Shown here piece by piece: positions 27,429 through 30,123 of a DNA stretch of 64,000 nt. This DNA comes from Natronorubrum thiooxidans (GTDB taxonomy: Archaea; Halobacteriota; Halobacteria; Halobacteriales; Natrialbaceae): positions 1 through 64,000 of the forward strand of contig NZ_FTNR01000001.1 of assembly GCF_900156475.1 (NCBI RefSeq), read 5' to 3'. A program made the position numbers and the translations under genes. The notes beneath the pieces were generated by a model. The model saw nothing but the letters and a program-made list of their open reading frames with translations. It searched no databases and was not told the origin of the DNA. The number at the start of each line of letters is the position of its first letter. Position 1 is the stretch's first letter.

Positions 27429-29543
27429 ATGACCGGCACCGACGACCAGCGAGCGAACACGGACATCCACCAACTCGACGAGGACACCGTCGCCCGGATC
27501 GCCGCCGGCGAGGTCGTCGAACGCCCCGCCAGCGCAGTCAAAGAACTCGTCGAGAACAGCCTCGACGCCGACGCCTCGAGCGTCGACGTCACCGTCGAGG
27601 AGGGTGGAACCGAGTCGATCCGCGTCGCGGACGACGGTGCGGGCATGAGCGAGGTAGACCTCCGGGCCGCCGTTCGCCAGCACACGACGAGCAAGATCGA
27701 CGGCCTCGAGGATCTGGCCTCGGGCGTCGCCACCCTCGGCTTTCGCGGCGAGGCGTTACACACCATCGGCTCCGTCTCGCGGCTGACGATCAAATCCCGG
27801 CCCCGAAACGCCGACGGCGCGGGCACGAAACTCGTCTACGAGGGCGGCGAGGTGACGAGCGTCGAGCCGGCAGGCTGTCCCGCGGGCACCATCGTCGAGG
27901 TCGACGACCTCTTCTATAACACGCCCGCGCGTCGAAAGTTCCTCAAGACGACGGCGACGGAGTTTGCCCACGTCAACCGCGTCGTCACCCGCTACGCGCT
28001 CGCGAACCCCGATGTGGCCGTCTCCCTGACCCACGACGGCCGCGAGGTGTTTGCGACGACGGGCCAGGGCGACCTGCAAGCCGCCGTCTTGTCGGTCTAC
28101 GGCCGCGAAGTCGCGTCGGCGATGATCCCCGTCGACGCCGACGGTGAGGAGTTGCCTCCCGGCCCACTCGAGTCCGTCTCCGGGCTCGTCTCTCACCCCG
28201 AAACCAACCGCTCGAGTCGGGAGTACCTCGCCACCTACGTCAACGGCCGCGCCGTCACCGCAGACGCCATTCGCGAGGGGATCATGGGGGCCTACGGCAC
28301 CCAACTGGGTGGCGACCGGTATCCGTTCGTCACGCTCTTTCTCGAGGTGCCCGGCGACGCCGTCGACGTCAACGTCCACCCGCGCAAACGGGAGGTCCGC
28401 TTCGACGATGACGACGCTGTCCGCCGGCAAGTCGACGCCGCCGTCGAGTCGGCGCTGCTCGAGCACGGCCTCCTCCGCTCGCGGGCCCCCCGCGGTCGAT
28501 CGGCTCCCGGCGAAGCGCGCCTCGAGCCCGGGGCTGCTCGAGGCGGCGACGGGTCGTCGAGCGACGAGCCTGCACGGGAGCCGCTCTCGAGTCCGGACGA
28601 CGTGAGCGCTGGCGCTGGCGCACGCTCGGAATCGACGGCCGCCACCGCCTCGGCTGGCACCGACTCGAGCGAGACCCCGGCGGGTTCCGAGTCGGGCGAC
28701 ACGGCAGCGGCTGCGGAGTCGGATGAGACGACAGCGACGGCAGACGCGAGCGAGGCGACGGCATCGACACCGTCCTCGAGTACCCGTGATCGAGACGCGA
28801 CTCGCTCGAGCGACGATTCCGCGACGGGTCGAGACGACTCGAGCGGGGCTTCCGAGCCGGACCGCAAGTTCGATGCTGGTACCGAACAGCAGACACTCAC
28901 TGGCGATGTCGCGACCGGCGACGAAACCGCGTTCGACTCGTTGCCGCCGCTGCGCGTGTTGGGGCAGTACACCGACACCTACCTCGTCTGTGAGACGGCC
29001 GACGGCCTCGTGTTGATCGACCAGCACGCCGCCGACGAGCGGGTCAACTACGAGCGGCTTCAGCAGGCGTTTGCCGACGACCCCGCCGCACAGGCGCTGG
29101 CCTCGCCGGTCGACCTCGAGTTGACTGCCGTCGAAGCCGAGGCGTTCGAGAGCTACCGGGAGGCGCTCTCCCGGCTCGGATTCTACGCCGATCGGGTCGA
29201 CGACCGAACGGTCGCCGTGACGACGGTGCCCGCGGTGCTCGAGGAGACACTCGAGCCCGAACAGCTCAGAGACGTCCTCGCATCGTTCGTCGAGGGCGAC
29301 CGTGAGGCGGGTGCCGAGACGGTCGACGCGCTGGCCGACGAGTTCCTCGGTGATCTGGCCTGTTATCCGTCGATCACCGGGAATACGTCGCTGACCGAAG
29401 GGTCGGTCGTCGAGCTGCTCGAGGCGTTAGACGGCTGTGAGAACCCCTACTCGTGTCCACACGGTCGTCCAGTGCTCGTCCAGTTCCATCAGACGGAGAT
29501 CGAAGACCGGTTCGAACGGGATTATCCGGGCCATCAGGGCTGA
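27429..29543 (+). CDS. mutL: DNA mismatch repair endonuclease MutL
   Basis: A 704-residue MutL. The N-terminal GHKL ATPase has IAAGEVVERPASAVKELVENSLDA, DDGAGM and GFRGEALHTI. A long acidic Ser/Thr/Glu linker (about residues 355-495) is typical of haloarchaea. The C-terminal domain holds the endonuclease motif DQHA-x2-E-x4-E, starting at Asp531 (DQHAADERVNYE), plus the zinc-site CPHGRP from Cys676. It therefore nicks DNA itself, as in MutH-less organisms. Its partner mutS is 16.7 kb upstream. A possible leader ORF overlaps its start. Confidence 0.95.
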   Translation: MTGTDDQRANTDIHQLDEDTVARIAAGEVVERPASAVKELVENSLDADASSVDVTVEEGGTESIRVADDGAGMSEVDLRAAVRQHTTSKIDGLEDLASGVATLGFRGEALHTIGSVSRLTIKSRPRNADGAGTKLVYEGGEVTSVEPAGCPAGTIVEVDDLFYNTPARRKFLKTTATEFAHVNRVVTRYALANPDVAVSLTHDGREVFATTGQGDLQAAVLSVYGREVASAMIPVDADGEELPPGPLESVSGLVSHPETNRSSREYLATYVNGRAVTADAIREGIMGAYGTQLGGDRYPFVTLFLEVPGDAVDVNVHPRKREVRFDDDDAVRRQVDAAVESALLEHGLLRSRAPRGRSAPGEARLEPGAARGGDGSSSDEPAREPLSSPDDVSAGAGARSESTAATASAGTDSSETPAGSESGDTAAAAESDETTATADASEATASTPSSSTRDRDATRSSDDSATGRDDSSGASEPDRKFDAGTEQQTLTGDVATGDETAFDSLPPLRVLGQYTDTYLVCETADGLVLIDQHAADERVNYERLQQAFADDPAAQALASPVDLELTAVEAEAFESYREALSRLGFYADRVDDRTVAVTTVPAVLEETLEPEQLRDVLASFVEGDREAGAETVDALADEFLGDLACYPSITGNTSLTEGSVVELLEALDGCENPYSCPHGRPVLVQFHQTEIEDRFERDYPGHQG

Positions 29544-29604
29544 TCCGACAGACGCCGCTGTGGCGCCTGCTGGCGTTTCTGTGGTGTCTTCGGCCAATTC
29601 AAGC

Positions 29605-29688
29605 TATAGTAGCCACTGAACGTCAATGCACACCTGATCGCACGACGACTATGCGATCAGTGTGTAAATCGTTTCAGTTGTTACTATA
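29605..29688. mobile_element. 84-bp palindromic MITE-like element
   Basis: The termini TATAGTAGCCACTGAA (29605-29620) and TTCAGTTGTTACTATA (29673-29688) are inverted repeats matching at 13 of 16 positions. The inside continues as a hairpin, with CTGATCGCA (29634-29642) facing TGCGATCAG (29652-29660). There is no coding capacity. Its right end includes TACTATA, which could serve as the TATA box of the small membrane protein that starts at 29723. From memory similar palindromes recur in haloarchaeal genomes; this was not checked. Confidence 0.6.
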
Positions 29689-29722
29689 TTCGCTTACCCC
29701 CTCCTCGACCGGAGTGGCTGGC

Positions 29723-29932: not shown

Positions 29933-29968
29933 GTGGTACTGACCACTTATACGGACCGCTGTACCTAT

Positions 29969-30009
29969 TTACCGCCGATCGCCAGCACGGGGTCGGCGAT
30001 CGGCGGTAA
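29969..30009. terminator. Strong hairpin between convergent genes
   Basis: TTACCGCCGATCGCC (29969-29983) and GGCGATCGGCGGTAA (29995-30009) are a perfect 15-bp inverted repeat around an 11-base loop. It lies between the convergent small membrane protein and MFS genes, so a bidirectional terminator or transcription barrier is the simplest reading. It lacks a flanking U-tract, so a repeat-element origin is possible. Confidence 0.5.
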
Positions 30010-30123
30010 TTGACTCCAGTAGACCGTATCAGACGGCCGTCGATGTGACACGCCGATTCGGTCTGCTCGAGCGTGCAGTCGCGCTCGAACGATTCGGATT
30101 GTACTCCGTCGGAAACGGGGGCA

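Follow-up and report, generated by a model that had tools for sequence, protein, structure and literature searches.

An 84-bp palindromic repeat next to mutL, probably an IS630/Tc1-mariner-type MITE of the Natrialbaceae

The dinucleotide TA is the target of IS630 and Tc1/mariner elements. Among the closest described small repeats, RUP of pneumococcus shares its ends with an IS630-family element and is present in around 100 copies, and the Correia or NEMIS elements of Neisseria are about 105-155 bp long (both according to the part of PMC2229807 drawn on here). Correia elements include tested promoters and lie mostly upstream of genes, as stated in the portion of PMC10969869 used. In haloarchaea, PATEs are known from Haloquadratum and are described, in the sections of PMC3119063 used here, without terminal inverted repeats or target duplications. 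In the window (the whole stretch of DNA that was analysed, 64,000 nucleotides), a palindromic element following mutL had been singled out in a sequence-only reading as a MITE-like repeat that provides the promoter of a small membrane protein gene. The repeat part of this reading is borne out by the copy number, the empty sites, the TA duplication and the link to IS630; the promoter part did not hold. We consider the element to be, with a probability of roughly 0.88, a non-autonomous MITE of the IS630/Tc1-mariner type belonging to the Natrialbaceae, and a passenger just upstream of a promoter-like box that was already in place.

Inspection of the sequence confirmed an 84-bp near-palindrome at positions 29605-29688, devoid of coding capacity as had been proposed and located after the end of mutL (29543). 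Its inverted ends (TATAGTAGCCACTGAA and TTCAGTTGTTACTATA) and the inner arms of its internal hairpin (CTGATCGCA and TGCGATCAG) were found where they had been placed before (Table 1). The 84 bp are made up of an 80-bp MITE proper and a duplicated TA on each side. The copy alignment holds 144 full-length copies at distinct loci, representing 133 distinct sequences; its 84-column table excludes copies of other lengths as well as matches starting after base 6 or ending before base 79. Length is near-constant, most copies having 84 bp, and so is the architecture: a 17-bp outer stem that pairs except at columns 8 and 10, forming the terminal inverted repeats with two steady mismatches, a conserved middle part in which columns 18-22 and 63-67 are unpaired in most copies, and a central hairpin.

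Table 1 Features of the element and its surroundings (window coordinates)
Feature	Position	Strand	Evidence
mutL	27429..29543	+	Pfam MutL_C and DNA_mis_repair
AATTCAAGC, upstream of the small gene, conserved in most relatives having it	29596..29604	+	alignment
Target TA, left copy, preceded by C	29605..29606	.	sister empty site caagc-TG-ttcgc
Left terminal inverted repeat, TATAGTAGCCACTGAA	29605..29620	+	sequence, copy alignment, reading-frame analysis
MITE proper, 80 bp, TAGTAGCC...GTTACTA	29607..29686	+	sister empty sites; 144-copy alignment
Non-pairing internal loop, left side (GTCAN), conserved	29622..29626	+	columns 18-22 vs 63-67
Central hairpin, left arm, CTGATCGCA	29634..29642	+	covariation with right arm, 133 distinct copies
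Hairpin loop	29643..29651	+	GC-rich array of 34-340 bp here in long forms elsewhere
Central hairpin, right arm, TGCGATCAG	29652..29660	+	alignment, covariation
Non-pairing internal loop, right side (AATCG), conserved	29667..29671	+	copy alignment
Right terminal inverted repeat, reverse strand TATAGTAACAACTGAA	29673..29688	-	sequence, copy alignment, reading-frame analysis
Target TA, right copy	29687..29688	.	sister empty-site comparison
Promoter-like box TTCGCTTACC, -34 from ATG 29723	29689..29698	+	alignment, motif scan
Gene for small hydrophobic protein of 69 aa	29723..29932	+	frame opened by ATG 29723; no Pfam match

Far from being a single copy, the element occupies 40 places in the host genome (threshold E < 0.001; 41 rows, two of them being the two strands of one place). 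It is present in 20 of the 41 sampled genomes, namely in 10/10 of the genus, 9/15 of the rest of the family and 1/16 from other families. Three of the genomes of the genus show complete identity, over kilobases, with Natronorubrum sulfidifaciens, N. bangense and N. texcoconense, so that the host is probably a Natronorubrum; N. bangense and N. sulfidifaciens do not have the element at the window site. A pattern scan returned at least 116 stretches with the element among named genomes, nearly all of them Natrialbaceae, a few of the matches listed being from outside this family (Halostella, a Halovenus MAG); no viral contig had a copy matching the pattern. While MITEs are a known kind of object, this family was not found described in the literature searched: the open-licence literature gave no earlier description, and one may exist in ISfinder or in a subscription journal.

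Both the target-site duplication and the empty sites that a mobile repeat should leave were found. The mutL region is collinear without the element in two sister genomes, which carry two bases (TG) at the site, and comparison with the window indicates a duplicated TA and 82 added bp. As these sister sites read TG and not TA, this interpretation requires that a base has changed in one of the lineages. When the joined flanks of 16 further insertions of the same genome were searched in 10 genomes of the genus, two-base empty sites (TA, TG or CA) were obtained for five of its insertions in all, i.e. the window copy, L014 (CA), L019 (TG), L020 and L024 (both TA), and every two-base empty site observed is TA or one transition away from it. 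The sister site of L010 was read at the protein level, L021 gave no clean two-base site (1/6 sister alignments), and for the remaining insertions there was no sister stretch spanning both sides among the loci compared. The base preceding the element is C in 105 and the base following it G in 92 of the 144 full-length copies. The target is thus TA, preferably in the context C-TA-G, and is duplicated on insertion.

This target bears on where the copies lie relative to genes. In the analysed loci, the word CTAG was counted 208 times in intergenic DNA, 116 times inside genes and 23 times at stop codons; since it is mostly intergenic, and sometimes a TAG stop preceded by C, copies build up in intergenic regions and at the ends of genes. 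At 24 of 100 stop-facing ends the gene terminates within the element, in most cases 5 or 15 bp from its edge. Among the 271 element ends with enough flank, 28 are entered by a coding frame, 19 times in frame 1, 8 times in frame 3 and once in frame 2. Frame 1 corresponds to an insertion at the first two bases of a TAG stop, and the ends then read TAT AGT ARC MAC TGA, so that both ends of the element restore a stop after four codons: the left terminal inverted repeat of the window copy gives Y S S H stop from its first base, and the right one, read in frame, Y S N N stop. A copy landing in a TAG stop would have its new stop supplied by its own end, four codons further on. Sister genes confirm such a landing in both of the cases examined (2/2). 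At L020, the protein ends DEHLG-YSND in the host genome and DEHLG in sister G002 (TAG stop), and at L010, whose product we take by eye to be glutamine amidotransferase-like, it ends ENFLESV-YSNN compared with ENFLETV in the sister (TGA stop).

The evidence for an IS630-type mobiliser is good as far as sequence comparison goes, and the link is strong for type and target, though less so for the exact partner element. The TA duplication agrees with what defines the IS630/Tc1-mariner group. With part of a DDE_3 transposase from a related genome as query, IS630-family transposase matches were found in 74 of 125 Natrialbaceae genomes, and 29 of the 30 transposase loci fetched contain an element of 1056-1059 bp with TATAGTA-type ends, preceded by C in 24/29 cases and followed by G in 26/29. 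The first 8 bases and the C-TA-G target are common to these elements and the MITE. Past the first 8 bases, the 3' end of the IS agrees with the left end of the MITE at 12/21 positions, the best of four comparisons, a score reached by a fraction of 0.00135 of random 21-mers; the other three comparisons are weaker, with 11/21 between the IS 5' end and the MITE left end and 10/21 between the IS 5' end and the right end. Which IS end corresponds to the left and which to the right end of the MITE is not clear, and these comparisons give no support to the MITE having descended end for end from the IS630-family element. No transposase-bearing element with the exact 16-bp ends of the MITE was present among the named loci listed and the IS630 loci examined, and the IS630-family transposase had no match in G008 and G009, closely related genomes that hold many MITE copies. 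Pairs of ends 0.6-2.5 kb apart (L235, L260, L195, L221 and L234) showed, by eye, no IS630-like transposase among their frames. L117 was considered as a parent IS with matching ends and rejected, as it consists of half a MITE with an IS630 fragment inside the loop of the degraded copy (1379-1430 of that locus). The MITE would be moved by cut and paste, by an IS630-family transposase acting in trans on the common TATAGTA ends.

The proposal that the right end of the element drives the small membrane-protein gene was weighed against a promoter motif (AACGTTTATA) learned from 510 upstream regions of family loci, the start of which peaks at -34 from the start codon with its AT-rich part at about -30 to -26. 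Most genomes of the genus conserve this gene downstream of mutL, and the sisters without the element keep both the gene and a promoter-like box starting at -34 (TTCGCTTAAT, GCCGCTTAAC or CGGGCTTAAC; in L082 and L083 the box would be at -34 or -33 only if the GTG nine bases upstream of the anchor is the start). The window counterpart of the box, TTCGCTTACC, lies directly downstream of the element, which is accordingly situated between AATTCAAGC and the -34 box. The sequence named earlier as a TATA box, TACTATATT, does exist, but at -41 to -33 from the ATG it is not in the right place: with family boxes starting at -34, it would have to lie roughly 8-10 bp closer to the gene to fit the common leaderless layout, and it scores at most about 1, no better than background. 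What speaks for a mobile promoter is that the element ends 34 bp upstream of the ATG, that an internal AATCGTTTCA at -56 scores 6.1 on the learned motif and would start transcripts near 29701, and that, of the native -34 boxes, TTCGCTTACC of the window is weaker than TTCGCTTAAT of its two closest sisters. However, 16.6% of random intergenic 84-mers score as high as AATCGTTTCA, and weak CTTAC versions of the -34 box occur in sisters without the element too. In a set of 111 named loci, which hold 104 elements, the interval 0-45 bp before a called start contains just 1 of the 87 ends that face a start, compared with 13.8% of control positions (8248/59578 uniform intergenic positions; p = 6.5e-5), the gene caller being a crude one that missed the 69-aa gene of the window, so that small genes are under-counted around elements and in the control alike. 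Element ends are therefore depleted from the promoter position, and a location upstream of genes like that of Correia elements was not found. A mobile promoter is thus quite improbable, and the gene next to the element is most likely not driven by it. At mutL, the insertion would have taken place just upstream of the pre-existing promoter-like box of the small gene, and this copy is probably a tolerated passenger.

The hairpin and the position at gene ends raise the question of whether parts of the element are under selection. The plus-strand RNA is predicted to fold at -38.4 kcal/mol (z = -7.3, 0/200 shuffles as strong), and three pairs of the central stem covary, being paired in 113 copies vs 58 after permutation, 119 vs 87 and 104 vs 72. 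These values, obtained with the 133 distinct copies, were reached by 0 of 5000 permutations, a procedure that ignores shared descent, and the outer pairs 15/70 and 7/78 are also above all permutations. Pairing in palindromes could also be regained by template switching, with no selection involved, yet the middle loop stays unpaired and is nevertheless conserved. In about 16 of the 23 long pairs the loop is extended, each time at the same point, by a modular GC-rich array of 34-340 bp, and several of the remaining ones are tandem copies. Such long forms are found at L161 (7674-7924), L175 (3056-3282), L179 (5447-5755), L237 (1641-2060) and others, and their loop arrays are built of modules such as GCGCGGTTCGGAGCG and GAACGGGGAGGAACGACCCGTGAGC. 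Besides the array on C43, the host genome has three short matches to it, two inside a degraded MITE on C23 and one not. A structured RNA or processing signal, with the hairpin acting in the 3' part of transcripts, would fit the covariation, the strong folding predicted for both strands and the enrichment of copies at gene ends. Against it stand the lack of any Rfam family above threshold, a balanced orientation (among the ends no more than 50 bp from a stop, 20 are left and 22 right), a gene-end placement in line with the occurrence of CTAG, and the decay of copies, the most diverged of which in the alignment share 62% identity with the consensus, all of which make this explanation unlikely; the sole sub-threshold Rfam match, STnc450, reached 17.6 bits for a cut-off of 37 and was taken as chance. 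A palindrome of the REP or PATE kind, moved by a Y1 (IS200/IS605-type) transposase, would likewise be non-coding and present in many copies, and PATEs do exist in a haloarchaeon, but the true terminal inverted repeats and the TA duplication, features that PATEs are described as lacking, leave it hardly any probability. A more novel but tentative idea is that the ends of both the MITE and the IS630-family elements have been selected as safe in stop codons; the element would then be adapted to landing in such codons, and its hairpin, with a GC-rich loop that can expand, would be a second selected part and perhaps a cruciform or RNA switch. It is worth testing because both ends of the IS630-family elements carry TAG at the position where those of the MITE have TGA. 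Target choice together with selection against damage may nonetheless account for the gene-end pattern, no special adaptation being needed.

A second palindromic element, with the ends TACGG...CCGTA, is located nearby at window positions 29950-30028, flanked by TTA (29947-29949) and TCA (30029-30031), and is present at roughly 30 places in the host genome. TNA is the target of IS5-type elements. In the flanks of many copies of the second element TNA is repeated, which suggests a 3-bp duplication. The core of its central hairpin (CCGATCRCC/GGYGATCGG) is similar to the one in the 84-bp element. The site of the window's second element, downstream of the small gene, is occupied at L079 of genome G008 by a copy of the 84-bp element and is empty in genome G007, and at L013 / L355 (G000:C21:12592-12757) a copy of the 84-bp element is interrupted by the second one.

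With the MITE, the Natrialbaceae gain a small mobile element defined by clear ends, a target and empty sites, which is of use for the annotation of intergenic regions and of small C-terminal extensions: products ending in YSSH, YSNN or YSND beside such a repeat probably have tails made by the MITE. The landings in stop codons illustrate how a transposon can be guided to nearly harmless places by a short target word, and the covarying hairpin allows a test of which part of a MITE is under selection.

The element is comparable to RUP, paired with IS630-Spn1 in pneumococcus, which is likewise non-coding, about 100 bp long and inserted at TA (in the part of PMC2229807 drawn on). The two differ in host domain and sequence, and in the present MITE a covarying hairpin and landings in stop codons were seen, its exact IS partner not having been found in the loci examined. 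Correia or NEMIS elements also have TA ends and a short and a longer form, the latter with an internal insert, together with strongly paired transcripts (same part of PMC2229807), but the Natrialbaceae MITE, unlike them, avoids the position upstream of genes. Among haloarchaeal repeats, the MITEs, PATEs and SMRs of Haloquadratum walsbyi are likewise free of a transposase, and the element fits the definition of MITEs given there (transposon-related inverted repeats, a target duplication and a length too short to code; the sections of PMC3119063 used); this comparison is by description, and IS630 has 0 occurrences in the main text of that source. The haloarchaeal IS630-family elements (L277-L306, 1056-1059 bp) have the same TATAGTA ends and C-TA-G target as the MITE, from which they differ in carrying a transposase gene and in the inner part of their ends.
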